Source: Candidatus Omnitrophota bacterium (GTDB lineage: Bacteria > Omnitrophota > Gorgyraeia > Tantalellales > Tantalellaceae). From it: DNA of 33,114 bases. This document shows positions 1,251 to 30,600 of this stretch, piece by piece. Under the pieces are notes generated by a model that was not told the origin of the DNA, did no database searches, and saw nothing but the letters and a program-made list of their open reading frames with translations. The stretch lies in the NCBI GenBank assembly GCA_007135805.1, contig SLID01000087.1, forward strand, positions 1 through 33,114, in the 5' to 3' direction. The position numbers and the translations under genes are program-made. Every line of letters begins with the position of its first letter. Position 1 is the stretch's first letter.

Positions 1251-4200
1251 AACCATCCGTCTACGGGAAGGGTTACAGCCACAACAAATGACGGCGTGAC
1301 CTATACATGGGCCTATACGATGGATGATAACAGAAACCCGATATTGGGCGATCTTCTTGAAATGACGGACGTGGATGGCGTCCTGACGAGGTTTACCTGG
1401 GATCAGCCCGAAGCTGGCCAGGTTACGGGCGTCACGAGTGATGGATATACTTATGTTTGGACCTATTATTTAGGACCCCGCGGCAATCAGATAATAGACG
1501 AATTGATATTTTCACAACTTACCGGGGAAAACTATTTCACATACGACTGGGACCATCCGGATCATCCGGGCATGCTGGTTGTCACGGAGAGGATGGATAA
1601 TGGCGCATTGGTCGGTATCTATGTTTTCGCGTACACGTCGATGTCGGATTTCGACACTTGGGAACTGCGTTTTGACATACGGCCCGATGGAAGCTATCTG
1701 GTAATAGACGAGTATCATCAGCCGTCCGGCGCCATATTGTCGGCCAGGGAATTTGATGCCGAGGACGAGCTCGTAAGGACCATTACTTACGCGGACTCGG
1801 GTGTCCGCAACGAGTACGGGCTTATATATATCGAAGAATTGGAAAATCCGGATGCTTTCGGGATGATAAGGTACGTGTACTATCTTGAAAGATTTTTTGA
1901 AGAGGACGGGGGAGAGTGGGGCAGGCTCCGGTCAGCGCATCACGAGGATGGGCACAGTTTTGAATATGTAAGCTATTATACCGATACCGACAGAAGGGCT
2001 GAGGTCCATGAGTTTGACTCTGACGGGAATCTTACCGGGGAGCTTTTCTACTACTACGATGATGATGGCGAAGAGATAGGTTTCAGGAAGTACTCGTATG
2101 AAGATTGGCAGACCGGAGAAATAATGAACGAGGTCCAGCAGATACTGGAACTTCGGAAAAGAGACGGAGAATACGCTATTTATTATAAAAAAGACATGCA
2201 AACGGGTAAAGAGTTCTGGTACCAGTGGGACCAGGAAGCCAGGGTTCTTAAGCCGTGGCAGATGGTGCTGTACGTTTTAGCCTGGATAGTTGACGCGATC
2301 ACCTGGCTTGTAGGTCTTCCGTTCGGATGGAGTGGGACAGATCTTGCCGGACCCATAGGGATGACCGATAGTTTTATGCTGACAGTTTATGACCCTCACG
2401 GGGCAGGGATTGTGGTTAATGTGGATCGCTGGACGGGTCAGGCCGAACTTGCCTATCAGGATGATCGCTGGAACGCTTTTCTTTTCGACCCGGACGCTAA
2501 CCCGTTAGATCCTACTGAGGAATGGGTAGGGTTGAGCGCATGGGAAGACAGGCATATTCCGGCAGTCGCTCTCAGCCAGGCAGACAGGCAGAAATGGCAG
2601 TTGCCGGCCTGGGATGAGAGTCGTGTTGAAACGCCGCGGGACGAGGTGCGTCCTCCCGTGAAGGACGCGAGGATATTGGTTGACGAAAGCGGTGAGGAGA
2701 TAGATCTTAACAAGTATTCTCCCGCAATGGCCCGGTTTATCGAGAAACACGCGAAAGTAGAAGATGTCGAACATGTGGATGTTCCGGAGGAGATCGTTGA
2801 GATCCCCGAAGTCATTAGTGAGCCCGTTCCGACCTTGATGGAAGATGTGATACGCGCGCTGGTAGCCGCGGATAAACTTCCTGAGGGAAGCGATATACAG
2901 GCGGGCTTATACGATAATGTGGTGGCTTTAAGGGATGGGGACGGATATGTTACGGGATATATTGTATATCGCCGGGATGACAGGATGATAAATTACGAGG
3001 AAATAGAGCTTGATATGTACGGAAGTGTGACCTATTCCCAGGCTTTCACCGCGGAAGATACCGCTCCCCGGGATTTTGAAGTATCTTTTGAGCTGCCCAA
3101 CGGTATTACCTACACGTTTACTGAAGACGGTTATGTCCAGACTGAAACTACGCCTTACGGTTATAGTTTTTTCGAGTATTATGAGGACGGATCTTTTTCA
3201 GAATACAGATATGACAATGCCACAGGTACCGCCAGGGCGTTTACATATAATATTGACGGCTCATATGTAGAGACAGTTTACGGTGATGATGACCTCGCGC
3301 TTGGTCAGATATCATATGACTCTTTCGGGAATATTACAGATGTCTCCTCAGCTCAGGAAGACATAGCCCCGGAAGGATATCTTCCTTTTCCCTGGGCTGC
3401 CGTTTTTCCGGCGTTTTTTAGCGCTATGCCGGAAGTTTCCATTGCTGACGGTGTAAGTTTTCATGGTGGGGATGTTTACGGATGGCTTCTCGGAGGAGAT
3501 CCGGAAAAGACCATAGCTAATCCCGCTGTACAGGAAGCGCTCAGGGCGTATCTCGCGGACTGGCAGGGTAAAACGGCGAGGCTTTTTATGTTCGGAGACG
3601 GAAGGGGGATCCTGGAAGTGCGTGACGGGAAAGTGGTCATGACACAGGATGTATCCGAGATCCGTCAAAATATGCGTACACTTCTCGAGATATTCCGGGA
3701 ATCGGGTGTTTCAGTCCGCCTTGATATTTTTGACCATAAAGCTCCCCGGGAGATATTGTCGCAACCTCGGGAAGTCTGGAATATGATGGCTCCGATAGTG
3801 AGCGAGATAGGCGAGTTTTCGGATGTTGTAAGATCTGTAAGCCCTGTGAATGAACCGCAATTCGCCGAATTCGAGGGCAGGCCGTCTTTTGATAATATGT
3901 TCATGTTCGTTTCCCGGGGGATACTTGCCATAAGAGATGGTAGTTCTCTTCCTGTGAGCGTAAGTGTGAGTACTGATATGCTGGGGGATCCCGTCAGGAT
4001 AGCCGAACTCGAAAGGTTTTACACATTTTTCAGCATCCTTAGGGAAGGAGATGTCGCTGATGTGCATCACTACGGGGATGTGCTCCCTTCAGTGGAAGAA
4101 CTCAGGGAGCTCTACGGTATCCGGGAAGGGGTAAATTTCATAGTGAGCGAGGTCTGGCCCAAAGATTTTGACGATGTCTCACGCGTAGCCAAAGATAAAG

Positions 4201-7200
4201 GGTACAGTGAGGTTTACATATGGGATGATGAAATTGATCTTTTCCGCGACGAGGTTGCTCCTGTTGAAGTAACTGTTACTCCGGAAGTTGAGATCGCCCC
4301 GGAACCGGAAATCCCGGCAGTCGCGTATGTAGAAGACGAAGAAATACCGGTTACGCCGGTTGACCCGGTCGATCCGGCCGTCGGATTTATGCAGCTTCTT
4401 CGCGGTCACACGCAACAACGCCGAGAAAGGCTGGAGCAGTTTTACGCTAATATGGGGTTGGATGAGAATGTATCCGTACATGTCGCTGAAAAGGACGGTG
4501 TAATGCTGGATGTTACTACCGGCAGTTACGAAAACGCTTTCATGGTAGCCGTTCTCCCAGAATCTGCCTCAAGTGTCCGAAGAGGAGAGATTTCAGAAAT
4601 GCCGAAGGGAACCGTAGTTTACGGCGATGGTTTCAATGAGGCGAGAGAGCTGGCTTTTTACAATATTGAGGATGGAGAATACAGGATAATAAGGCCTTCG
4701 GACGATATGTACAGGATACCCGATGCCGTACGTGTTGATGGGGTGATTTACCACCTCGAGATAGCGCGAATGATAACTGAAGAACGCGAAACTGGAAATA
4801 TTAGTGTTTATCCCAGCAGAGAGTCAGCCCGTCTGGCTGTTGAAGGGTTCCATGAAGGTGTTGTTTACGCGAAAGACGGAACTCCGGTAAGTCCTTTTCT
4901 GAGGATGCCGGCAGAGGTCATGTCTCCCGTTCATTTTCTGGCGGGTGTTCTGGAAAGCAATCCGGGTACCATGGTGACTACGTCAGCAGGGGACTATTTC
5001 TCCGCGGACAGGCTGGTCCTCGGGTCCCACTTAGGAAGCGGCAGAAGAGTAGATGTTATAGAAAGCGCGCGGGAAACAAGGATAATGCCCTCCGCTGATG
5101 AGGCAAGAGGGTGGCAGATAAGCGAAAATACGGTTACAGATACCCAGGGCAGAGAGTGGGATATCAGCAGGGATGTCTACATCGCGGTTTTGGACGAGGC
5201 TGGAGAGGTGGATCGGTATTATCCGGATATGAGCGATTTTGTCGAGGATTTTATGGCTACTCACGCTGTGTACGTACCTGCCGCCAGCGGGGAGTGGGAG
5301 CTTGTGGATATGTCGCCGGTCGCGGACCTTCATGAGACTCAACTTACGGACGAGATACGGACGGCAAAGGAAGCCATGAGCCTTTACCAGATAAGTTTTT
5401 CTGAGGGAATAACTTGTGATTACAGGGGAGAGGTATACACGCTTCAGGCTGATGGCCGATGGCTTTCTTCTGAGGGCGCCGTCCTTACCGAGGTAGGGCC
5501 GCGGCATCGCAGAGCACCGATGCCCGGTATTTCCAGGGAGATAGATCCCGCGGCAGTTCTTGCTTTGATACGCGCCGGAGCGGTCTTTAAGGATGCCGGT
5601 CTTGAGATGTTCGCCCATGATAAAGCAGAGAGAAGAGGCAGGAACATCGAACGTGAGCTTACGGTCATTCTTTCTAATATGCGCTATCTTCACGAAGCTG
5701 GGATAAGGGATCTGGCGCTGGCTGACCATCTTTCGCGAGAAGAACGGGAAGATGTCATCGCGCGGATAATATCGAATACGCCGCAAAGTATGAGGGCTTA
5801 CCTGAATGTTATCGCCTCTCACGGCCAGGCGGATACAATTTCTAAACAAGGTGTTGAATTGATGCTATCCCTGGGCTTGCCGGGATTTGTTCCTTCTCTT
5901 AGTCTGCAGGTTACAATAGACCCAGCCAGAGAAACCAAGGTAAGAGAAGCTATCGCTCGAGCTGAGAAACAAGGGCATTTTGTAGATCATCAGATGGCCA
6001 GAGATCTGCTGGACCTACTTGACAGACACTTTATCCGAGAACAGGCCGTAGAGACCATAGACCTTTTGAACGAATATGCCGCGTCTATACGGAAAGATCT
6101 TGCGGATGGATTAGTGGAACCTGGAATGGAACAGATGGCGCAGTCAAAGATAAGGGGCATAGACTCCGATATCGCGCACATGCGCAACATGGTTTCCGAC
6201 GCCGAAAGAGATATAAGGGTGCTTTTATCGATGGATCCTGAAAGAGAAATAGGTATCGTTTCCGAAATAGATCTGGAAACCATATTGAAAGCCGCGGAAA
6301 AAATGGGTTTTTCCCAAAGGGTAGCCCGGGACATACTGGGTCTTAAACTGGCCGAGAAAGAGGCCGGTATAGCGGTTGAGATAGCTAGTGACAGAAGAGC
6401 CACGACCAGGATAGCTATAGGGATACCTTTCGTATTCTCCTTTTCAAGGGCCAGACCCACGCAACTCCAGACGGCGGTAGCTACGCTTTACGCTGAGATG
6501 GAAGAGAAGGTAGCCGAAATAGCCACGCACAGCAGGGTAGGGGAACTCAGGCGAAGGGCGGATCTTGTAAAGAGTCTGTTTGAGACTTATGAGGACATGA
6601 TAGAAACTTTGCAGAGCAGAGTCGGTGTTCTTGAACAGAACCTGGCCGAGACTGTAAGGTGGCAGATAGATAGCGGAGTGAGGTATACATACCTGCTTGA
6701 GGTTAGAGAGGAACTTTTGGAAGCAAGAACGGCTTTACGCCACGCGCAGAACCTGAGGGAAAGCCTCGAGGCCGAATACGAGCAGGAATTGGCGATGCTG
6801 GATACATACATAGGTCCCGATACGAGAGAAAGAATGGGCGTTCTTACGCCGGAGGCGGCCTGGGAGTTAGCTAAAGAAAAGTTTTACAGCGCCAGCGGGG
6901 ACGGACGGGAGTCCGGTTATTATCTTGAGATGCTGAATGGATTGCTTTCCGCCTGGGAGGACGAAGGCAAAAAAGTCAGCGCTCAACGTTTCGGGATAAG
7001 TTTCACTCAAAGCGGGATCACCCTTGACGCGCGTCTGGTAACTCAGATATTCGCCAGGCCCAGCATGATGGAGTATCTGGCTAAGGAGAGGGAAAAGGCA
7101 ATGATGCTGGATAGGCATGGTCTTGCTCTTCTTGCCCAGGATTTCAAAATACTGTGGAACAGTGTGGCCTCTCTTCAGGAAAGGTATGAATCACAGAAAG

Positions 7201-10200
7201 AAATAGTGGAGCTTGCCGGGGAGAATGTCGCGAATGCTGAAAGGACACGGGACGGTCTTAAGATAAACGACGCCAGAGGATTGCTGGCGTCCGAACGGCA
7301 GAGGCTCCAGACCCTTCGAGCCGAACTGGATAACGCCAGAACGATGTTCACGGGCCTTATAGGCCCGAGTTTTGCAGAACTGGTTTCGACGGAAGCTCTG
7401 GAAAGTATGGTCATGCCGAGCCCGGATCCTCTTCTTATGAGGAAAGTACACGCCATAAGCCTCGAGCAGCAGCCTCTTCTCAGGAAAGCGGAGATACTGG
7501 GAGACGCGGCTCTCGACATAGGTGTGGGCTTTACATACGACGACGGATTTTCGTATATTTCCGCCACTACTGATTTCTTCAACATGTCAAGGATATTTGC
7601 CGCTTTGGAAGGTGATGTGAGATCTGAAATGGCGCGTTACCAACTCGAGCAGGAGCCCTCAAGGATACGCGAACTGATGGTAATGACCGAATCCAGGTTG
7701 AGGCAGGCGGAAGATAATCTTGACGCGCAGACGCGGGAACTCGCCCTTCACGGCAGAAGGATAATGAGCCTCGTGGCCGAAAGGGAAGATACGTTGACCC
7801 CGCAGTTGGACGTGACTGAGTACGACCTCAACAGGGAACTTATCGAATACCGGATAAAAGAGAATCAGGTAAGGGATGCTTACAGATGGGTTGAGGAGGA
7901 GGCCACGAGAGCGGCCATTTTCAGTTCAGTGCAGTACAGAGATGAAGATCTTCCCGCCATATCGGAAGAGCGTATGCGTGAACTTGAGGCGAAACTTGAA
8001 CTTTTGAACGCCAGCAGAAAAGTCTTTGAAGGACTTGGTGTTGTAGTGGGAGCCACGGTTACCCGAGGTTATGAATTTGACGAAAAGGCCAATGAAAGAC
8101 TCAACCAGCTGGAGGAAGCGGCGTATCTTGTTAACTATATAGCCGGTCTTGAGACTTGGCAGCTCGCTTTTCCCGGGAGTTCCACGGTTCTGCGTGTACC
8201 TTTCGGTAAGGCGGGGGACACGCCCGTTAATCCCAATCTCATAGGATTTGTTTTTGACGCGTGGCGCGAACACTTGGCCCCGCAGCGTGTAGTAAAGGTC
8301 GAAGGGATCCTGACCCTGAATTTCAGTATTACCGTAGCGGATCTTTATGACGCGGCCCGTCACAGACAACTCGCCGAAGCTTCGAGGCAGAGAGCCCGTC
8401 AGGAACGTTTGCGCGACATAGAAAGGGTAGTGCGTATGGCGTCAACGTATCATGTAGGTTTACGCCGCCTGGATGTGATAAAGAAGGAGATAAACCGGAT
8501 AGAAGCTGAACTGGATGTAGCCAGAGAACGCGCTATAGAAGGAAGATCACTGGACGTGAGCAGAGTTGACCGCATGGAAAGGCATCTTATCGGCAAGATG
8601 GGGGAGCTTAATGCCGCGGAAGAAGCTGTCCAGGAAGCCAGGTCGCTTTTCAGGTTGTATCTTTCCGACAGGATGGAACTTAAGTATATATCGGTAGATG
8701 GCCTTGAAGACCCGTCCTTTATAGCGAGTATTCCGGCGGAACAGTTGGATGAACTGTGGAGAGAGTTCGAGGAAAAACACCCTCTTCTCAGGGAAATGAA
8801 CGCGAGAGTGAGGGCTTCGGAATTGGGGTATGAGGGATCCACCTGGCTGGCCCAGCTTTTAGGGTTCTATATGAGTTTCAATATACTGGACGGTACTGTA
8901 GGGGCCGGTATAAACCTGAGGCTATTCGATTCGGCCCAGCCTTCCCGGCAGTTTGAGGAATTCGTGAATATGGTTTCTACCAAAGCTCTGAGGGAGCATG
9001 CCGGTAAGGAACTTGCCAACGAACTCGCGTCTATAGCCCGCAACCTGCCGAGGCTTGTGGAGCGTGTTGACAGCGCCAGGGAGGCTTGGATGGCCGCCGA
9101 AGATCATTACCAGAGAGTCCGGGAACAACATCTTCGGGGAGAAAAGACGTTGGATGATATCACTACGGCGATGCTGGCAGTGAACGCCCAGCAGGACAGG
9201 TTTTTGGCCGCTCTTGGAGATTTCCTTAGGGAGTCGGTGTCTTTCAGCGAGAAGATGAACTATCTTGGTATAGAACTCGGTGTCTCCGAACTTCGTTCAC
9301 TGGACGTTCCATCTCATCAGGTGGAAATGGAAGCTTTTCGCGTCGTTCCCGAACCTGTAAGTGAGAGTGAGATGGCCAGGATACTCAGGGAACCACCGGC
9401 AGTCCCGAGAGTTGAAAAAGTCGTGACCACTGGAGAAATAAGCGCCGCTGTTGATCGTTACCTTAGCGCTATGGGCAGTTTTGGTGACGTGGGGTCGGTT
9501 CTTCGTCTTAAATCCCGTCAGGAATTCAGGGAACTTTTCGCTTTAATGGTTAATTCCATGGAGCTTGACGCCTCTTCCGCCAACCAGCACATATCCCGTA
9601 TGGCATACTGGCGTTCGAGGACTAACAGGCACAAAGCCCTCTTTGAGGGGCAGGATTTCTTTGCCATGTTCCCGGACAGGAATACCCGTCTTGATGTAAG
9701 CGGAAGGATAAACGACCCTGAAACCGGAATGTATCCTGATATGTCCACTATGCTCGGGCTGGATAATTTTCTGGCTGGTCTGGAAGGTTATTATGAAACA
9801 TTCTGGGGACAAAGCAAAGAGGACGCCCGTAAAATGGCGGATGAGTTCTTTACGCGTTCGCTGGAAGTTCTGAGAGACAGGACTTCCGCGGATTATCATC
9901 TGTGGAGGGACAATGTCCAGCAGATGATGGGTACCGTCGGGCTGCAGCTTACTTCAACTACTCTGAACACCAGCAGGGCTTCCATGATACCTTACGCGGG
10001 AATATTGGGTATGGACCTTGATCCGTGGAATGAGAACGATGCCGCGGTGCTGGACCTCTTATATAACTATATCTCCTTGTCTGGTCTTACCGATCAAGAG
10101 TTTACCTCTCTACTGGAACTCGCGGTAATGGCGAGTCCCATACTGGACGCCAATTGCGGTGATGTGAGAGACGCGTCAAGATGGTCCGCTGAGAGCCTTT

Positions 10201-13200: not shown

Positions 13201-16200
13201 AGGAAATGGAATTCGAGGCCCAGCAGTGGCTTACTACTATATCCTGGATAGATGACAGTGTGAGTGAAACCCCAAGACTTACGGAAGTGATCGAGACTGT
13301 TGAAGAACCGGCGCCCGTAGTACCGGAACGCTTGGTGGACGAAGTTACAGTTACTCCGGAAGTTGTTGGTACCCTGTTGGGTCAGGAGATAACTAAAGAG
13401 GGTCAGGGTGTGGTAAACCGTTTTCAGGGTCTTTGGAAAACCCTAAATGACAGCATAACCGATCGCGCTTACGTTATAGGAAGAGGCCGCAATACTGACA
13501 TGGCATCTGTACGCGCCGTTCAGGAAGTCTTTTGGACACTGAATACCGGTGATGTGCAAAGCAGATTTGAGAAGTCCGTTTTTGTGGACGGTCTCTGGGG
13601 GCCGATCACAGAGGGTGTGGCAAGAGATTTTCAGTCAGAACATGGCCAGGTAGTCGACGGGCTTGTAGGTGAAGAAACCGGCGGGGCTATGTTGGGAGCG
13701 TTACTTAATGTGCGCGTGGAAGGTCTTGTGGATCCGGAAACGGTCGATCCGGTGACGGAAATAGAGGTTATTCCTGATGTTGATATCTCCGCTCCGGAAT
13801 ACGATACCTTGAGAGATGAGCCCGAAGCTCCGGTGGGAAGGTTCATAGTGGATTACGAGGACCGGAATGAGGACGCGCTTATTACGCTTGTCAGACAGCG
13901 CCACGAAGACCTCCCCGAAGGGATGCTTATAACGGTCCCGCTTACCGGGAAAAGAGGTTCATATGAGGCGGAAAAAGTGTTTCTCGGTAAGGGCGTGTAC
14001 ACGTTCTACGGGGTTGCCGGCAGAAAAAGGGTAAGAGAGTTCGTGGAAATGCCTAATGATACCGTAACTATCGATCAGGAAACTGGTGAGATAATAGAGG
14101 TCAACCCTGCGATCGTTCAAAAATGGGAAGAGTCTCAGAGCGTTGTTTTCGCTCATGATATGCAGGATGAAACCGTTGTGGTGAATATACCGGGCGTCTA
14201 TGGAGAGACGTCGGTGGCCGGCAACCCCGAGCGCGAGAAGGGGCTTTTTTACCTTCAGAAAAAAGTACACCTTCCCGGCCGAGTAGTAGCTTTTGTCATA
14301 GCCGAGTTCAAGGTCAATTTGAACGGCGCTCGGAATGTCAGCGAGGCTCTTGACAATGTCATATCAAAGATAAATCCGCTTACCGGTGAGATCGATTTTT
14401 CGCGGGAAGAAAGCAGACTGGAAAATCTGGGTACATTGCAGAACCTTTATTTTTCAGCATACGTCGGTGAAGACACCGAAGAGCTGTATCAGATGATAGT
14501 TGGTGTGGATGAGCAGGGTAACATAGGCCGGAATATCACACTGCATCCCATGGACGCGGACTTTACCGTCAATGTTATGGAAGGGCGGGAATTTAAGAAT
14601 ATAAGCGTCCGCGAAGCTGCCGGACTCACTCAGCTGCGCAAGATGGATGAAGGGATAGCGCTTAGTGACGTTGGTATACTGGAAGGCCTGATCCCGCAGG
14701 GACTCGAAGACAGTATGTTTTCCCTTTGGGCCGAGGAAGAAATGAGTTGGAAAAAGACGGTCAAGTCCGAGGGAGATATAGAGGTTAAATATTATAGACC
14801 CGGTGAAACGGAGCATTTTAAGGTAACATGGGAAGTGGGAGCCAATGAAGAAGCCCTGAAGATGGTTCAGGATATTCAGGGGCTATCAGAAGCGGGCAAC
14901 CTGAAGGACAGGGATTTTATCGATAAGATATATACTCTTATAAAAACAGATAAGGCTTCGGTGGAAGATATAGTTTCCGCGATCGATGTTATGACCGGCC
15001 TTATAGGCACGCTTAAAGGAGTGGAAATAGGAGGATCTGAACTTGAGGCTATTTTGCGACATGAGCTTGTTCCCGGCGCGGAAGTAAGGACCAATGTTCT
15101 GGAATGGGTATTGAGCAATGAACAGGAAATACGCAAATACATGGCCGATCATGGTGTTTCGCAAGCAAGGTACATAAGGGACCTCGCCGGGACATTCCGC
15201 GCTGTTCAAAATTACAGTTCCCTGGAGAGATATATCCGCGCGATCAACCGGAACGAAGAAATACCTTATGATGAGCTTACACCACTCGGCAGAGCCGCTT
15301 TGCATTTTGAGGAAATTCTGAATATAGCCAGTAATCAGATGGCATCGGGGATAAGGGATACAAGGTCCGGAGGCGTGTACGATCAACTTCTGGGAAGAGA
15401 AGCCGATCGTATTGAGTTATCGGATGATATTACGCCGGCGGACGCTCCCGAGATCGTGGAAATAGGTACTCACAGAGTGAGTTCGGACAGAATGCAGTCG
15501 TACGCGGGGTATTTTGGTAACGCCGCTTTCGGGGCCTTGATGCTGGCCTTGGGTATAGGTCTCTTTTTCAGAGTAAAGGGTGTGCGCAAGCATTACAAAG
15601 AGTTGAAAGAGATGACAAAGATATCTCCTCCCGATGCCCTGGAACCGGCTTTTCCGGAAAGCGCTCTGATATCCGAAGATTTCGACAAAATGTGGAGCGA
15701 TATGGGAGGTCAGATAACCGCTTTTCAGAAGGGTATGTGGGAAGCTTACAGGGTTATCGAACCATACCGCGTTCAGCCCGATGGCAAAAAGCATAAGCCC
15801 GCGCAGAGACATACTATATGGAATATAGCTTTTTACTGGGTAAGCGGTTTAGGGATACTCGCTGTCAATATGGTTCGTGGTGGAGGGGTTTTCTCTTATG
15901 GATACGGCCCCTCGGTTTTGGTTCCGGCACTTGTATTGACCGCCATGGGAGCCCTTGGATCTTGGAAATATTTTGCCGACAATATCCTTATATTGTTCCC
16001 ATCCCGGAGGGCCGAACGCAGGGAGAACGCTTTAGCTTTCCTGGAAAAAAATATTGATAATCTGGAAATTTATCTCAGGAAACTGGAGGCTCAAAGTGAA
16101 AGTTATGGGTTCACCAGTGAAGAATGGCGGGAACTTCTGACTTTTCCCGTACATGCTCCTTTCGCGGAACCCGAAGATGTCGTGGAGCTCCAGGTCCAGA

Positions 16201-19200
16201 CCATAAATCTGCTGGATTACATTCAGTACGCCCGAAGATGGATAACTTTTCTGCGTTCGGAACAAGGCAGGGAATACAGGTTTTTTTCAAGACTGCATTA
16301 TCCCTCCGACCAGCACAGGCGTGACACTATGCCGACATTCTGGGTATCCGGACCTGATTTTTACTGGGGAGAGACGGTCCAGGGTTACGACCCCAAAAGA
16401 AGATCTTTCGTTGGGCTTGTGCCGGGTAAGGAAAGTGAGTTCAACAACATAGTTTCGGGGGCCCCAAACGAGGAATTGGAAAGGATAAGGGGACTCCAGG
16501 AAAGAATGATGGAGGATCAGACTAGAGTGGCTACCAGTATCACGAGGATAACGGCAAGGGTTTCGGACACAAATCGTGAGGATCCGGCGTTCGAGGCCAT
16601 GCTTGCTTCCATCAAGGGTTTGAGAGAAGAATACGTCGCGATAACTGATGAGTACAACTTGCTGGAAGAAAAAGCTTCCGCGCTTGAAAAAGAGCTTGAA
16701 AAAGATCCTTTCGCTGAAAGGGACCGGCTGGACTCTGGGCTCAAGAAACTCGAGGAAGAAAGGGCCAGTCTTGTGAGAAAGGCCTACCTTTCCGGAAGTG
16801 TTGATGAATCGACGAGGGAACAACTCGCACGTGAGATCGATAGTAAAAACAAAAAAATAACAGACACAAGGGCGAAGTACGCCGAAGTGAACGCCAGGAT
16901 AGGTTTTGGGATTGTCTCACCGAATATCCCCAGGAATGGTCCCAGGGAATATTCCTCAAAGTGGGGTATGCGTATGACCGATCCCATACAGCCGCTCGTG
17001 CCAATAAACAACGTTTACCATTATCTGCCCCTTTTGAGGAAAAGGGTTGAAATGCACCGGATGGAGTCTCAGAAAAGGGCGGGAGAAGAGATACTTCCCG
17101 AAGATTTTCAAAGAGTAACCGAAGATCTCACACGGCTTACTGAGACTACCCAACAGTCCACTGTAGAGGGATGGATGGGGCTTGGCGGGGCAAATCCCGA
17201 GAATACGAGTTACCCCGGTACTATACGCAAGCGGCATCCCTGGAAGATAGTCGCTTTAGGAGCCGCAAGTGTGGCTTTATCGTTCATTGTATACTTTGCC
17301 CGTCCGGTAATATCTTCCGCATGGCAAATGGTACCTGTCCTCCCTGAGCTTTCGCTCGGCGCGGCCTTGCCGGCTATGCTTTTCGCTTCCGGTACGGCTA
17401 TGCTCATAGTTATAGGTGTTTTCAAGCTCATGCTTTTTGTGTTCGGTTATTTCACAGGACACGACGAGATACAGGACCAGGACATAGCTGATTTTGTGCC
17501 GGCGCATATACTTGACAGGGTGTTATCGGAAGTAGCGTCTGAACTGGAGAGTGAAGGGAAAATGGTGCCTGAAGAGCTTATGGAATACAAGAAGGAAGTT
17601 GACCCCGAAACGCGAAAAGAACGCGCGGCTGAAACGTACATAAAGATAGGTAAAGAATACCAGAAAGCCACCAGGTGGGGTGAAGCTTTAGCCAAGGTGA
17701 TCTATTACGGCCGTATGATAATCAATATGTTCACGGCGGGACTTGTTTTCAGTGAAGCTTTGAAAAAACCCATGCCTTCTGACTGGGTGACTTACAGGGC
17801 GCGTTTGCAGCATAATCTGGACGACATAATAAAGATAGCGAACATGACCCATGATGTCGATGGTATAAAAGGAAGGAAGAAACTGCTTGACGCTTTCAGG
17901 GAAGCGGAAACCAACAGGGACCTGATATCCCAAAAATATCAGGAATTAACCGGTGAAGACGTTGGGCATTTTAACCAGAAGATGGACGAATTTAAGCTCC
18001 AAATAGTTGGATGGGAGAAATCCGAGAAAGGGTTTCTTGATTCGGGTAGAATGACGAACCTGGATATTCTGAGAGAGATCGACTATGACGTGCTCAAGGC
18101 CATTATAGAGACTCCGGCTATCGCGCACATGATATTTGACAAAGTGGTCCTTATGGATACGGTCTTCGGCCTCTTCGATCCTGAAGGGTGCGTGAGTGAT
18201 GTCAAGGCGACAATGGAATCGGCCGCGACAAGCCACCGTGGAATAGTGGACATAATACTGGTCATGGATGACGATGACCCCGCTACCTCAGTAATGCAGG
18301 AAAATCTGAAACCCGGCGGCAAACTCGAAAAATACGCCGAAAATGTGATCATATATACAGGTTCGAATTTTGGTTCCAACCTGGGGCTTAACCAGCGGAA
18401 AGTGCGTATGAAACCACCTATGAATGTTGAAGCCGTTCATCATTTAAAGACGCATTATGCCCAGATGAAGGTATCCCTGAAAGAGGCTAAAGAAAAAGGA
18501 CTTCCCGAAGAAGTTATACGCAAGCTAAGGGATGGTTCCACTTTGCCAAGTTTTGTCGAGCTTGTGGACCAGGAAGACAGGCTCCAGCCGCTTCTTCTTT
18601 CCTCAAAGTCAGCTTTGTGGTCAATGAGAGAACGTACCATAAACGACCAGATACGGATCCACGAGGAAAAGAAGATACAAGAAACTGCCGAGAATACAAG
18701 GGATAGGCGCAGGTGGTCGATCGATTACAGGAAAGCTTCGAGAGGCTTGGAAAGGGAGTATGAATCAGCTGTAAACGCCATGAAAGACCAGTTGGAAGGG
18801 CATGATGATATCATCACGCCAAAGGAGCTTAGAGGTCCTGAAGCTGACAGGTCCCAGGTTGAAGCTTACCTCGAGCAGGCCGGAACTGCCCGAAGGGTAA
18901 GATACATGCTGGATTCCTTTAAATATAGCTATAAGAACGTTGATTCTTACATACGTTCGGAGTTCAGAGAGAGGAATATGCCCGTTGTAATACAAACAGA
19001 GCTGAGGTTAGTTCCCATACAGGACTCTCGGTGGAGTTTTATGGCGCATCATGATTATCTTCTGTGGCATAACCAGATACAGCCCGGGCAGACATCCAAG
19101 TTCACTAAATTCCTTTTTCTCGGAGGAACCGGAAATGGTTTTAGGTGGGACATGCTGGCTGGGTCACGGCACGATTTCGTAACGGAATCCGTAACGGACA

Positions 19201-22200
19201 AAACAACGGGTGAAAAAACCGATGTGAAAGAGATGAAAAGATCTTTCCTTAATACACGCGCACAGCTTGACCACAGTTTGTTTACGTTGAGACAGGTTAT
19301 GCTGCGCGAGGAAACGAGAATGCATGAAGAGCTCAGAGAGAAAAGTCTGATAAGAAGGATAATTTTCCATCTGGACGTTTTTAAGAGATCTGTGACCGGA
19401 CGTGTCTCCGACTATACAAAGGTGATAATACCGTCAATGATATTTACAAGACATTTGAACTTTCTCGGACAAAGCGGAACATGGGACCTTTACAACATAA
19501 TAGAGGACTCCGAGCTCGGCAGGAGAATAGCCCAATATAAACTTATGTGTACACGGCTGACCGGTAAGTTTACACAGGTCCTTGAGGATGAACTTCCGGC
19601 TTTGAGCCCGGCCTGGTGGTATCAGAGGTCACGCTGGATAATAATGCAGACGTTCGGGGTGGTTATCTCACATCCCGCGGCCTTTTTTGGCTTTTTCGGT
19701 CAGTATCTTGGAGCCGGACTCGGGTGGATGCTCCTCGGTGGAAGAACAAGCGTGGGACTCGGTTTGATAGGCGCTGTCGTAGGTCTTTTGATCGGTTTTG
19801 AGGTTTTTTACCGAGCAGGGTCGTTCTTTAATAAGATGAGGGTCATGGCGGGCTACCAGAGAGGAGCCGCGTGGCAGATAGATCCTGTTGCGAGTATGGG
19901 CCGCTGGAGATTCCAGCATATAGTGCATCTGGCCGCGGCGGTTCCCGCGGTACTTATGACGGTGGTTACACTGGGTGTAGCGATATTTTACACCTTAACA
20001 AGCGGCGCCGGGATGATCTTCCCCGGGTTTGAGTATGCCGGAGGCCTGGGGTTGTTACTTATGGATGTCATCCAGTGGGGAAATACCTTCATACCTTTTC
20101 TGAACGGTTGGTTAGCGGGGACCATAATAGGTATGGTAGTGTTTTTCGCTCCCCCCATACAGCAGTCATTGCAGATGGTGTTCGCGGCCCTTCGGGCAAG
20201 TATAGTCGATGAAGAGTCTACTACTGAAGCTGTCGACACTTATATTTCCCAAAGGATCTTAGGCGGCCGAGAAATTATAGCGAAAGACAGGGAAATATTC
20301 GACAGTTTCGCGGACGGCTCTTTAGTATTGCCGCAGGATCTGGTCCCGATAAAAACTTTCGAAAAGGACTATTATGATACTTTGTTTGAGCTACGCCGCA
20401 TGGAACAGAGATACAGGGTGTCCAGGTTTTCAGAGAAGAGAAAGATCTACAGGGATATCTGGGAAACCAAGAAAAATATAGAAAAAATACAGCAAGAGAT
20501 CGAAGCATTCAAAAAGTCATATCCGGATAAATACGAACTGTACATGTCTGAATACCGGAACCCGCTTGCCTTATTGAGAGTGAGTGAACATTATTCGGTC
20601 TTCAGCAATGACGATTACGTTGTTGATGTGCTGGACAGGTGTAAAAATAATATGAGGGCAGCGATAGATCTTGTTAAAAAGGAAGACGCCCGGGAGGCCC
20701 TTGCTTTCCATGCTGATGAAATTAATGATGTGGAAGGGCTAAGGCAACTTCTATTGGATGCCAAGGATGAAGCGGATGATGGAGTTGCATTGGATGGCAA
20801 GGCAAGGGCCATTCTTGAATTGAGGAAAGCGATCGGTATAAGTGACGCCGAGATCAGCGGCGCGACACCAAGTCAGATACAAAAAGCCGTTGCCGCCGCC
20901 CTCAATGAAAAGCTTGGTTCCGGAGAGATCCTTGATGGGTTTTTCACCGAAAAATACGGTAATGTGTATGACAGTAGCTCTCTCGAAGATAATATGAGAC
21001 GCGCGCTGTCAGTAATAAGCGGTTTGCGTAAAGAAGTGGAAAAATCAAAGGAAGATTTGGAAAAAGCTAAAAATGAGAAAAAAGGAAAAACAGAGATCAA
21101 GGCGCTTGAAAAGAAAGTAAAGCAAAATAAGAACGTATTCGAAGAAAAGGTCTCCAGTAAGGATATTGTTCGATTGAATATGTCGATATTGGAGTTGGTT
21201 TACGGTGATTTTGTGGAAAGAGCGAAAGACTCTCAGATAGGCGATAACTATTTCGGGTGGTCTCATTTTGGTGAACAAGCCGGTATTAAAAATGTGACCA
21301 CAGCTCTGGGGGCTCACAGGAAGCAGTTCGTTTCGGGTATAAAGCAGGACCTTAAAGTCTTGAGGGATGTTCGCAGGCTTGTCAGGGGAGATGTCGTAAT
21401 GCCGGCTGTCATTCCTTTGGTATTGTTGGGCATGTCTTTATCAATGACCCTTTTCAACTTTACTGTCGCCGGACGCGTCGCTCTCGGCATTACTCTATGG
21501 CTTGTCGGCCTGGGGGTTTACCAGAGGATACTCGAGCGTTTTGCGGATGGATCCCAGTCCGCTGGTTGGTTGGGCCGGAGCGCGTATCATCTAAGAGAAA
21601 GAGCGAGGATAGGACGTCTTCCTTATCATATGCTGAGGGTAATGGTCAGGTCGCCCCTGCAGATAGATTATTTCATGCATCTGATACCGGCGTCTTTTCT
21701 CTCTCTTTATATGTCAACTGACAGGTGGGTCGGGGAAGAATTCTGGCCAAGAGGCCGGCAATCGCTTAAGGCATTGGCTAAAGGAGCCAAGTTGATAAGT
21801 GGTGGATTGTCCGATACCTACACAGCATTGAAGGACAGAGCGAAAGTTTACGGCAAGGAAAGATTTTCTCTTATATCTCTTCTTGGGGTGGCTATGATAG
21901 GAATAGCTGTCCTACCTCTGTGGAACATAACAAGAACGACCCCGGGGCTCAGGGAGGGTCAGGCTGTAGCGGACCTTGCCAGGGAATCGTACAGAAGGGG
22001 TGCGACAGATAGATTCCTGGAATATTCAGATATCCGTCAAGCTTTCGGGGCCGCGGTGGGCGCTATAGAGTCTTATGAAAAGGCCTATTTGGCCGGTGAT
22101 CGTGAAAGTGCCGAAAAGCTGTGGGAGACGATGGTCCACGCTGTCAACGGGGTCAGTGTTTTCGCGGCAAGAGGCGAGGATGAGATAAGGTGGAGAGATA

Positions 22201-24599: not shown

Positions 24600-24686
24600 A
24601 TGCGATCTTTCAAGAACTCACTGATTTTGAAGATCATAAGCCTCCTTCTCGTAATAAGCTTCGTCAACCTTGACTTTGCCTGGGCA
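24600..24686 (+). other. N-terminal signal peptide of giant 2
   Basis: Residues 1-29 carry a basic start (MRSFKNS, Lys11), a hydrophobic core (ILKIISLLLVISFVNL) and an A-W-A end at 27-29, a plausible signal peptidase I site before Tyr30. Confidence 0.8.
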
Positions 24687-27600
24687 TATACGGAAGTTTC
24701 ATCACCGAACCGAAATCTTGCCGTATGGAGCGCCTTCCAGAAGCCCATATATTCTTCACATATTGAACCTTTAAGCGAAATTGCCGGCCGGATGGAGCTT
24801 GTTTCGGCAATAGGCGTGATCTCGGGATTCCTTTTCGGCCGTGATGGTAAAGATAAGGGCGAATTCGGCCGGCTTGCCGCTGTCTTACAGGAAAAATATG
24901 GTGATACACTTTCAAATATCGACATTAACCGTGTTTTTCCGCTTGAGTACCTGGAAGAATATAAAGATGCCCTGGAAAATAACAGGCCGATACCAAATTT
25001 CGATTATTCAAGGACTATCTCAGACAAAGATTACATTGTGATACCTTACAAACAGGCAGGGCGTACCACGCTTATTCTTGTATCTAAGAAAGGGCATGTC
25101 CCCGCTTCGGGCATAATGGGATACGAGTGGAAAAACCAGCCGCTGAAAGATTACATGATAACGGTTCTTCCTGTTGATCATGAAATACCTGAAAGCTGGG
25201 ATAAAGACGCCCGGATCGTTAAAGATAGGGAAGTGAAATACCAAGATTTGGCATCTGTTTCAAGGGTAGGACTTCCGGATTATCTAATGCCAAGTAGCAC
25301 GGAGCTTCTTGACGATATTTCGAGTTTAACATCGAGTGCACAAGAGCAACGGGATAGCAAATTCAGTCTCCGTAAACTTCTTGGTATGGCGCTGGCTTTA
25401 ACTTTTATTTTATCGACTAGCGCATTTGCGAGCGATACTAGTCAGACTTTTAGCGAAGAAATCAAGAGTTTGTGGGAAAACTTATCCCAGTTATCTAAAA
25501 TAGTGTTGATCCAGTTAGGGGTTGGCGTGGTTTTGGGGTTTGAATATTTCAAATCCATTGTCATAAAGTTGGGGCGATCAGATCCAAGTATAAAGATTGG
25601 ATATAACCACAAATTTTATTCTTTTGTTAACAATCGGGCTTTCAAATTAATTGTCTTAAGCGGTTTCTTAGGTGGTGCTGCATTAGCGGGGAATATTAGC
25701 ACTATACTAAATCCAATTATCGGCATCTTTTTTGGACTGGCTGCAGCGTCTTATTATTTGAAATATACGAGATCACGTATGGTTTCTGATGGAGGGTTAT
25801 CGTCATTTTTGGATTCGTGGATAGCTATGGGTATAATGGAGAAATTTCGTGCTATTACGATTAAAAAAGGGACTTATCCCGAGGAGTTTGTTGAATATAT
25901 AGCTGATAACTATGTCGGAGAAAGAGATGCTAATATGAGGGGATATCTCGCAAGAATGGCTGTTCAACATGCGAATGTCTCAAACATAAAAGATTTGGAA
26001 AGAATATTTAATTGGGAACTAAACTTTGAAGACAATAATTTAATGTTGATGGAAATTACAAAAGTAATCGAAGAACTTAAGCTTAAGGCTGATAGCGATT
26101 CACATCCTTTTAACGCTATTTCCGGTCTAAGGTGGGGAATTTTCTCAGGGATATTATCGTCAGGGAGTATTGCCACAGGCATTTGGCAGTATTTGGTACA
26201 AGGATCGTTAACTTATGTGACAGGCCTTGCAGTAGCCGTAGGCATGTATTTCGCATGGTCGGCTGCACGGTGCTTTTCTATGGGGTTTAGTACCTACCGA
26301 GTTATGAGAAAAACCGGTCTTACGTTCAAAGAAGCGTGGCACGCTGAGATCGCCAGCTCGGATGGGTGGAGGCATGACGCTTATGAGCGTTCAGACTTGA
26401 TAGAATTGCATGAAAGTTTTGATTCGCATTTTTGGGGAATGTTAGCGATCATGCCGCTTATAAGCGTATCATTATCAATCGCTACGAATATATGGCAGAT
26501 AAAACCGAAACTGCCGGAGGGTGTCGCGGATTATGCTGTGGCAATAGGTTGTTCTATCCAGGAAGACGGTACCGCTAGTACGCATTCCATAGCGGTTGCG
26601 GAAGAAAGTGTAAGTTTGCTTAGAGATGGCAAGGTTCGAAAGATAATATTCAGCGGAGGGAACTCACAGAATGGGATAACAGAGGCGCAAGCGATGAAGA
26701 ACTACGCTTTGCAGATATATCCTGAGGGTGCGGATCGCTTTCTTATGGATATGGCTCCAAAAGATAAATTTGGGACTGAAAAACAGATAGACGCCATACG
26801 CTATACCATAAGGGAAGATCAAGCGGACGAAAGTCTGACAGGTGTAAGTGTTATTGGCGTAGCCCAATATCTGCATGCGAGAAGAGCGATAGGTATCTTG
26901 CGGAAAAAACTGGAAAACGAGGGGGTTAACGTTTATCAGAGTCCCGCGGAAAAAAGCAAATATGAGAAGTATCCCACCCAGCCACAATTTAAGGCCGGGG
27001 AAATGGGGTTTCTTATGTGGGAAATACTAAATTTCATAAGAGTTTGGGCAATGGATGTTTTAAAGGGATTTGGTTTTTATTTTAAGGACAAATCCTACAG
27101 AAGTCCGGGTACGGTTTTCCTCGACAACAATATCGTTGTAAGCTATACCTCCGGGTGGGACCTTATCGATGAACTGACACTCCCGAGTAAAAAGGCAATA
27201 TCGGATGGTTTTAGTCAATTTAGGGCAATGCTTTCAGGTAGGGGGTTTTCGCCGGACCTTATGTCATTCGAAGTCGCGTTCGAAACGATCGAGGACGCCC
27301 GGAAACTTAAAGCGTCCGATATTTATAACGGCAATTGCACTTATCATGTCAAAAAAGTCCGCGATACTATCATCAACCTGGCGGTCAGCGATACTCCGGA
27401 TATTATATCGGATCCGAATAGTGAGTTATACGCAATAGTCACTGAGATCAAACCCCGCTATGTTAGTGTCCATCTGGGCTGGTCGGCTGAAGAGGTAGAA
27501 CTTGGACCTACCCGGGAGCATGAATATGATGTTCCCGCAAAAGGCTATGAAAACCTCGACAGGGACACACTCATGAAAAATATGGTTAAGAACATAAACG

Positions 27601-30600
27601 AACTGAAGAAAAATCTTGGGGAAATACCTCTTTTAGTCGAGATGCTGAACTATCAACCGGACGGAGCATATGAACATGTGACAGACCCCGCTTTTATAAG
27701 GGAAGTATTGAAGAGGACCGGAGTGGGTTTACTCTTTGATTGCGCGCATATGCTGGTCTCGGCCAAAAATATGGGATATACGGGTCCCGGTGCTTACATG
27801 GATTATATAAGGAAAGTTGTCGATGATGACACAGTAAAACATATACATGAAATACATCTGTCGGTCCCGGTGCCGTCTGCCCCCGGCAGTAAACACTCAT
27901 ATGATGATTTTCACCTGCCCTTTTTTACTGAGAGTGAGGCGGCCGGTGAGGTTCAAAACATATTGAGATATATCCTGGACCTTAGGACGAAGAATAATGT
28001 AACTACTCCGTTAACGGTGAATTTTGAGACCGGCATACAAAATGCGGGGAAGGAACTGCCCGTTTTGGCCGGGATATTAGGGGACTTATATGTACCCGAC
28101 AAAGAGTACCTGGATCCGGTGTTTAAAGAATTCGGCCTTGTCCCCTCGTTTACCGTTAATACTTCAAGTTTCGGCGCGAAAGATCGTGGTGATAGGGCGA
28201 TAACGAAACCGCTGAATCTGGAGGTGCCGGTTGTTTACACAGGCCTTGAAAATGAACTTGAGAGTTCCGGACTTGAGAGAGCGCCCAGAACTTTTCATTT
28301 TATGATTATCGGAGATGAAGCTTTAAAGAAAAAAGAAATGTTTTTTCTCCTTAATGACGATGCGCAAGAGATCTTGGAAGACCCCTCACTTTACGAAACT
28401 CTCGCTAAATACCATGCCGAAAGACCTGTTTCGGTGCATCTTGGCTTGGGTGTGAAAGATTTCAGGGTCAAAAGAGGGAAGCTGATGTATGAGCAATTAC
28501 CACCGGACATGACAGAATCTAAAGCCAAGGCTACGATCATCGCGAGAATTGAGCAGTTGAGATCGAATCTTCGAAAAAACAAATTGAACGATCACATTCT
28601 TTTGGAAAACTGTGATTATTTTCCGGGCAACAGATATGTGGTCGCCCCCGAATTTATCAGAGAAATAGCCCAAGCGACCGATAGCGGACTTTTGGTGGAT
28701 CTCATGCATATAGCTGCCACGGCTTTGCATGACAAACCGGAATATTCCAAAGAGTTCAATGATATGTCCCCCCTGGAATATCTCAAGGCTCTTGTCGACC
28801 GTGATAATATAAGCTCCGTGGGCGAGATACATATTGCAGTCCCGGCAATGAATGATGCGGGTGAATGGAAACATGCCAGAATGGAAGGGGCGCCTGACTT
28901 GCCTTTTCATGTTGAGAGTGACGGCGCGATCTTGGTAAAGGGGTTGTTAGCATACATCCTCGGAATGAGAAAAAAAGCCGGTGTTGAAACCCCTCTGATA
29001 ATCAATTTTGAGACCAACGATAAATTTGCCCGTGAAGATGTCGCACATTTGGCTGAATTTATAAAAGAGATAAAAGCATTAGATATGGTCTCATATGCCG
29101 AAGGCATTGACAAAGATTTTATGTCATCTTTCAGAACTCCCGAAATGGAAGGGGGGCGCCCGATATCGGCAGAGAAGAACATCTTGGAGATGTCTGACGA
29201 TGAAATACTTTCTCTGATGGATCCGAGATACGGCGAACTCAGGAAACACGCAAAAGCCGATCTTAAGTTTGCCCGGGCCATAGCTGAAGAGCTTGGTTAC
29301 AGGGACAACGAAGAGTTTATGAACAAATTGCGTGTAATAAGCCTTGCTCACGATATTGGCGGGATACTGGGATATAAGGAACATGAAGCAATTGAGTCTG
29401 GACTGCACGCGCTTATGAAAGACAAAGGGTTGGAATGGAAAGGGGTGGCCCCCGATGAATTGCTGGGAAAAATTAAAGAGAAAGGGATAGAGCTGGATCC
29501 TTCAGAAGAGATCTTTATTCCGGCGATCGATCATGCCAACAATTCTATAAGAGCGCTTGAAAAGGCAGGTATTTTTATCCCCGAAGATGTCAGATTCATA
29601 ATTTCAAGACATATGGACGAGCCCTCTGAAGATGAACTCAAGTCCTGGCCGGACGAGACAAGAGCCCTTTTCGCTATTTTCATGCTTGCTGATGTTTTTG
29701 AGTGCGGAAACAACTTTTATAAACAAAAAGGTGATTACTACAAGCATGAAAGTAAATTTGAAGACCCCAGGGATACCTTAGCTTTTATCCGTGACAAAAA
29801 AATGAGGGGTCGGGATTCTCTGAAATCTTATTTGGAAGCGGCTGAGAGGTCTTTCAGCGGAGAGAAATTCCAAAAAGCCTTGGCCTTCAGCCGGACCCCA
29901 TTGGATCAAACTTCGAGTCCTTTTGTGAAAACCGACGTGGAAATAACAAGATCTTTAGCTACACGCGCGACGCGGTCTTTTAAAAAGTTCAATGTCATCC
30001 CGAGCTACACGCTTAACGCCTCGAAGGATCCGGGCGATCCCAAAGAAGCGGTGTTCCGGCATGGTCTTGAGAGGTTCAGGTCTATCTTTGAAATGTCTGA
30101 AGTAAAAGTGCCGTTCGCGTTCGAAGATCAGTGCCGTAGCGAGGATGAAATAGACAAAATAGAAAAAGAAGATTTGTTCTCGGCGGATAAAAGAACATTG
30201 CATCTGAAAATACTTCAGGCGGAAAGCGCGGAGAAAGCAAAAACCTTGAAAGCGGGGCGGTATGAGATCAATCTTGCCGCTCAAGAGACTATGGAACTGA
30301 TAGCCAATGAGAAAAGCGTCATTTACAGGATAACGGAGAGGATGAACCCGGAATACGTAAGTCTTCATCTAAGCGCTTCGGTAGAGGACAGAAAATTTGC
30401 CACTCAGGACGCTCCTTGGGAAAGCCCTGTCCCCGGGTCGGTAGTCATCGATAGAGACGAGCTTTTACGCAGATTTTCCGAAAATATCATCATGTTCCGA
30501 AATAACCTGCGCAAAACGGGCTATAAAGGGCAGATACTTGTAGAATCCCTGGATTACCATGATTCCGGGGCGTACGAACATATTACGGAACCGTCGTTTA

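Follow-up and report, generated by a model that had tools for sequence, protein, structure and literature searches.

Can a single polypeptide carry all the half-units of a complete TolC-type channel? A TolC-family protomer consists of two structural repeats (PMC8277102), and outer membrane factors form trimers (PMC7396618). The window, the whole 33114-base stretch of DNA analysed here, is one entire contig of a Candidatus Omnitrophota genome (1.63 Mb in 137 contigs) and is filled by two open frames, 3-24407 and 24600-32906. An initial annotation saw six TolC/OEP-like half-units in a row within the first of these frames and proposed that they could form a covalent pseudo-trimer.

3 to 24407, forward strand: giant open frame of 8,134 codons, N-terminus cut by the contig start, first ATG at 21

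Counted from the first ATG, the giant protein has at least 8,128 aa, the frame being open at its 5' end, and it combines the six-unit array with a membrane segment and two further regions, one glycoside-hydrolase-like and one GT2-like. The full-length array-bearing orthologues of genomes G001 and G059 begin with a signal-like N-terminal segment ending in WAQ; the window copy is missing its N-terminus. A common signal-like N-terminus (WKRR...), followed by a conserved IQDAHxSLxAQ-like motif, is found in the giants of L042, L043, L046, L048, L053 and L134. Giant open reading frames are known from Omnitrophota, and their roles are poorly understood (PMC10066038). Our giant belongs to the same phylum and size class; TolC is not mentioned in that main paper on such frames, and the literature searched at title and abstract level gave no account of TolC units in Omnitrophota giants or of single-chain TolC channels. 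Among the papers searched, a single one names both Omnitrophota and TolC, the latter with one occurrence.

The array was divided into six units, numbered U0 to U5, whose residues refer to the giant protein P0001 and whose probabilities and E values come from hhalign against OEP halves.

5688 to 6230, forward strand: U0, OEP half-unit, residues 1890-2070, 97.6%, E 4e-12
6231 to 6812, forward strand: U1, OEP half-unit, residues 2071-2264, 77.7%, E 1.9e-5
6813 to 7361, forward strand: U2, most diverged OEP half-unit, residues 2265-2447, 12.7%, E 2.3e-3, in register (reversed 1.0%)
7362 to 7925, forward strand: U3, OEP half-unit, residues 2448-2635, 88.1%, E 3.1e-6
7926 to 8663, forward strand: U4, OEP half-unit, residues 2636-2881, 64.8%, E 6.2e-5
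8664 to 9278, forward strand: U5, OEP half-unit nearest to ordinary OEPs and best Pfam stretch, residues 2882-3086, 98.1%, E 7.1e-14

A search for relatives with the window slice alone recovered one other genome, and a five-genome profile was therefore built. The region was aligned with four orthologues (L097, L100, L101 and L102), unit boundaries were set by eye on the alignment, and the reference profile comprised 63 OEP halves from the relatives' TolC-like genes. In this first count each of the six blocks gave an in-register match, and no reversed block did. The final per-unit probabilities were obtained after extending the alignment by two more full-length genomes and one split genome. Profile-profile matches to OEP halves are strong for U5 and U0, moderate for U1, U3 and U4, and weak for U2, with null reversed-sequence controls (E 0.055 or worse). 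U0 and U5 align to OEP halves across nearly their whole length, strands included.

Searching the whole region free of preset units returned six non-overlapping matches (U5, U0, U3, U1, U4 and U2, the last at E 0.016) and beyond them only noise (E 0.1 or worse); ordinary OEPs put through the identical procedure gave two strong matches, then noise. The Pfam OEP family (PF02321) passed its curated cut-off on the slice singled out by the initial annotation (E 5.8e-8, about 33.2-33.3 bits vs 22), and at a lenient E <= 1 it covered four stretches of the full array, 5688-9278. Single-sequence searches did not pick up U2, and phmmer with the single sequence of the slice found no match in the PDB. The profile comparisons confirm six consecutive TolC/OEP half-units in one chain, as the initial annotation had counted by eye, and its limits of 5775-9260 were nearly right: the first helix starts slightly before 5775 and the sixth unit ends near 9278. 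By sequence, the units are members of the OEP family, and the architecture departs from the family's two halves per chain, the giant chain holding six.

The best explanation, to which we assign a probability of roughly 0.6, is that a giant envelope protein contains a TolC-like duct of the outer membrane built from a single chain, each polypeptide supplying the full set of six half-units for one channel. In this view three OEP protomers (U0U1, U2U3 and U4U5), each degenerate, would be fused head to tail, and their six units would together form a single closed barrel and helical tube. Like those of TolC, OprM and CusC, the half-units are predicted to have a long helix of ~60-70 residues and then a shorter helix. 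The known proteins are trimers with two repeats per protomer, whereas the giant has six halves per chain together with other domains.

Structural comparisons are consistent with this family assignment. The 14 best matches of the array profile in the PDB were all TolC-type (TolC and its Klebsiella and Salmonella relatives) or CusC, with a modest best E of 9e-4; U5 aligned with TolC 283-407, and U0-U1 with CusC 150-420, across both halves. AlphaFold models were of low confidence, both for the full array (five alignment rows; pLDDT 46.6, pTM 0.23) and for U0U1 (13 rows; pLDDT 58.5, pTM 0.31). The array model contains six TolC-length helix pairs, in which the first helix is the longer (59-72) and the second the shorter (35-51), and these pairs are its better-scored parts.

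Model helix pairs (AlphaFold secondary structure): 79-139/145-179, 258-329/333-383, 448-511/522-558, 643-701/711-747, 889-950/955-994, 1087-1149/1155-1192

Strands precede five of the six pairs, at low confidence. Foldseek ranked TolC, CusC, SilC, OprM and VceC first for both models. These outer membrane factor matches reached probabilities up to 1.0 and a best E of 2e-3, at TM-scores near 0.2; the overall shape is therefore not modelled, and the Foldseek matches are supporting only.

The strands bear most directly on the strongest alternative, a rather unlikely one in our estimate, in which the OEP units have degenerated into a long spacer or scaffold in the periplasm that keeps its helix pairs and has neither barrel nor passage. 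Such a spacer would suit a model whose confident parts are the helix pairs and whose strand regions have a pLDDT near 30, as well as units that are strongly diverged from one another. Residue propensity and inspection nevertheless indicate a beta-hairpin candidate in every one of the six units, both in the window and in its nearer clade (L101, L102 and G135), and in U4 an insertion of ~90 residues, placed by inspection, lies between the two candidate strands. By the same approach, the U2 candidate is absent in L097, L100, G004 and G012. In one clade U2 thus seems to have lost its hairpin yet kept its helices, which again favours the spacer; the retention of short hairpin candidates in most units across diverged orthologues, and the match of U0 and U5 to OEP halves through their strands, speak against it. 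The loci of the hairpin-less clade are L097 1466-5089, L100 3478-7080, L136 (G004:C198) and L137 (G012:C117). Since the U2 hairpin is apparently missing in one clade, twelve strands are not universal, and it is the six helix pairs that are conserved. The proposal of the initial annotation is accordingly supported in its six units per chain, which recur in orthologues, and not in twelve strands as a strict family-wide feature. A closed channel of twelve strands and twelve helices is predicted from unit count and homology.

Orthologues show how old the single-chain arrangement may be. Two genomes outside the profile, G135 and G004, match the array profile end to end (E 2.7e-163 and 4.7e-147), and both carry the six units that the initial annotation had suggested looking for; the G012 array was matched in two contig pieces. 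Five or six successive units are recognisable in a 12,589-aa frame from another family (G301), and a more distant giant (G047) gives no clean count, with six or seven units by eye. In a draw of 384 genomes across the phylum, full-length arrays occurred only in families f1 and f8. Ordinary OEPs from the class, 400-500 aa long, are also picked up by the array profile, chiefly via its last unit.

Comparing the units of two clades one by one gave a diagonal matrix for U0, U1, U3 and U5, which matched their own counterparts at 92-98% and almost nothing else; for U4 the diagonal match ranked first but was weak, and the U2 match was not diagonal. Most units had therefore diverged before the genera split, each keeping its position. 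This pattern argues against the array being an assembly artefact or having arisen by recent tandem duplication and points to an old array, and position-wise divergence fits a ring whose places each differ. It also bears on a second, improbable alternative, in which pairs from three giant copies assemble into ordinary trimeric channels and each chain links up to three of them. Protomers of outer membrane factors normally trimerise (PMC7396618), and the three pairs per chain could each do so; however, the divergence of each pair to its own position is expected if the three pairs face each other, and tethering favours closure within a chain. Least credible is a coiled-coil look-alike of other than OEP ancestry, a very remote prospect because, although long amphipathic helices can inflate matches among unrelated coiled coils, the window and three of its orthologues score above the Pfam OEP cut-off (E 5e-8 to 2e-17), reversed controls are null, and outer membrane factors dominate the PDB and Foldseek matches. 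For the single-chain duct, the comparisons directly support unit homology, number and order, the conservation of most units by position, and the co-occurrence of these parts in one frame.

The initial annotation had considered the array alone, which sits within a wider conserved architecture that includes a glycan-synthase-like region.

3372 to 4262, forward strand: glycoside-hydrolase clan A-like domain (NEP ... SE pattern, motif inspection), upstream of the array
13584 to 13691, forward strand: possible peptidoglycan-binding domain (PG_binding_1, E 2.2e-4, 21.8 bits, just under the cut-off of 23)
15513 to 15569, forward strand: hydrophobic segment (hydropathy), then RVKGVRKH, predicted return to the cytoplasm
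17871 to 19911, forward strand: region resembling GT2 processive glycosyltransferases, flanked by membrane segments (IIEDSELG at 19497, YQRSRW at 19620)

The hydrolase-like domain gave no Pfam match in the window, and its orthologue in L101 matched Cellulase/GH5 under the cut-off (E 0.0023). Matches to the GT2-like region occur in 13 further genomes of the family and lie mostly within giant frames. Its aspartates, IED..ELG and WW.QR.RW are invariant, and ED and QxxRW motifs are present with flanking membrane segments (hydropathy). The giants of G013, G002 and G003 match PF13632 (E 4e-6 to 2e-4), and G013 with its neighbours reaches the cut-off (27.1 bits vs 27). The window's own region received no PF13632 or other Pfam call over cut-off, and a PDB profile search gave no GT2 assignment for it. 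The window-family profile matched ordinary GT2 proteins weakly (E 0.027) with the motifs in register, and a viral-contig search with the glycosyltransferase profile found nothing. In the window itself, the GT2-like assignment rests on motifs. Two related giant genes of >10,500 aa with a GT2-like region occur in G005 (contigs C3 and C32; L045-L048).

In G059, hydropathy places one membrane segment at 3224, before the array, and the next at 7476, after the hydrolase; the array and hydrolase are therefore predicted to be periplasmic, with the synthase region on the other side. Extended to the window, where we infer single-chain closure, membrane topology, substrate and direction, the array and the hydrolase-like and peptidoglycan-binding-like parts would lie in the periplasm, followed by a membrane segment and a predicted cytoplasmic GT2-like synthase region. 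In the most economical reading, the synthase would assemble a glycan polymer at the inner membrane, the hydrolase-like domain would trim it in the periplasm, and the product would exit via the chain's own six-unit duct. That one polypeptide of 8,000-10,000 residues spans the envelope in this way, joining an inner-membrane synthase, a periplasmic hydrolase and a covalently closed outer-membrane channel of six half-units, is a tentative proposal to which we give somewhat less than even odds.

A comparable division of labour has been modelled for the cyanobacterial XcsAB-TolC system, in which an inner-membrane cellulose synthase, an endoglucanase and a TolC-like exit are combined, without experimental proof (PMC12430437). 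As in that model, a synthase, a hydrolase and a TolC-like exit are proposed to act together; there they are encoded by separate genes and joined by an HlyD-like adaptor, whereas the giant is one polypeptide, in which a Pfam search found no HlyD-like adaptor domain. The giant may best be read as a one-polypeptide analogue of the proposed XcsAB-TolC system. A naturally occurring, conserved chain with six halves would amount to a pseudo-trimer whose thirds are each free to specialise, and it provides a test object for how a TolC-type pore is built and gated. Combined with the synthase, the array offers a concrete, testable mechanism for Omnitrophota giants, by which one molecule may both make a polymer and export it across both membranes.

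The same genome encodes an ordinary two-half OEP inside a 917-aa frame (G000:C11 4229-6979, L067), and the organism therefore has conventional TolC-like proteins too. Pfam matches to Epiglycanin_C and Enterotoxin_a, both under cut-off, were regarded as chance, and an NCBIfam match to HrpV was discarded (E 0.009, 15.9 bits vs a cut-off of 150). The second large protein of the window (24600-32906, forward strand; 2,768 aa) combines DUF218, MbnB/TglH/ChrH-type (E 7.6e-19), weak HD-like and cytidine-deaminase-like domains.
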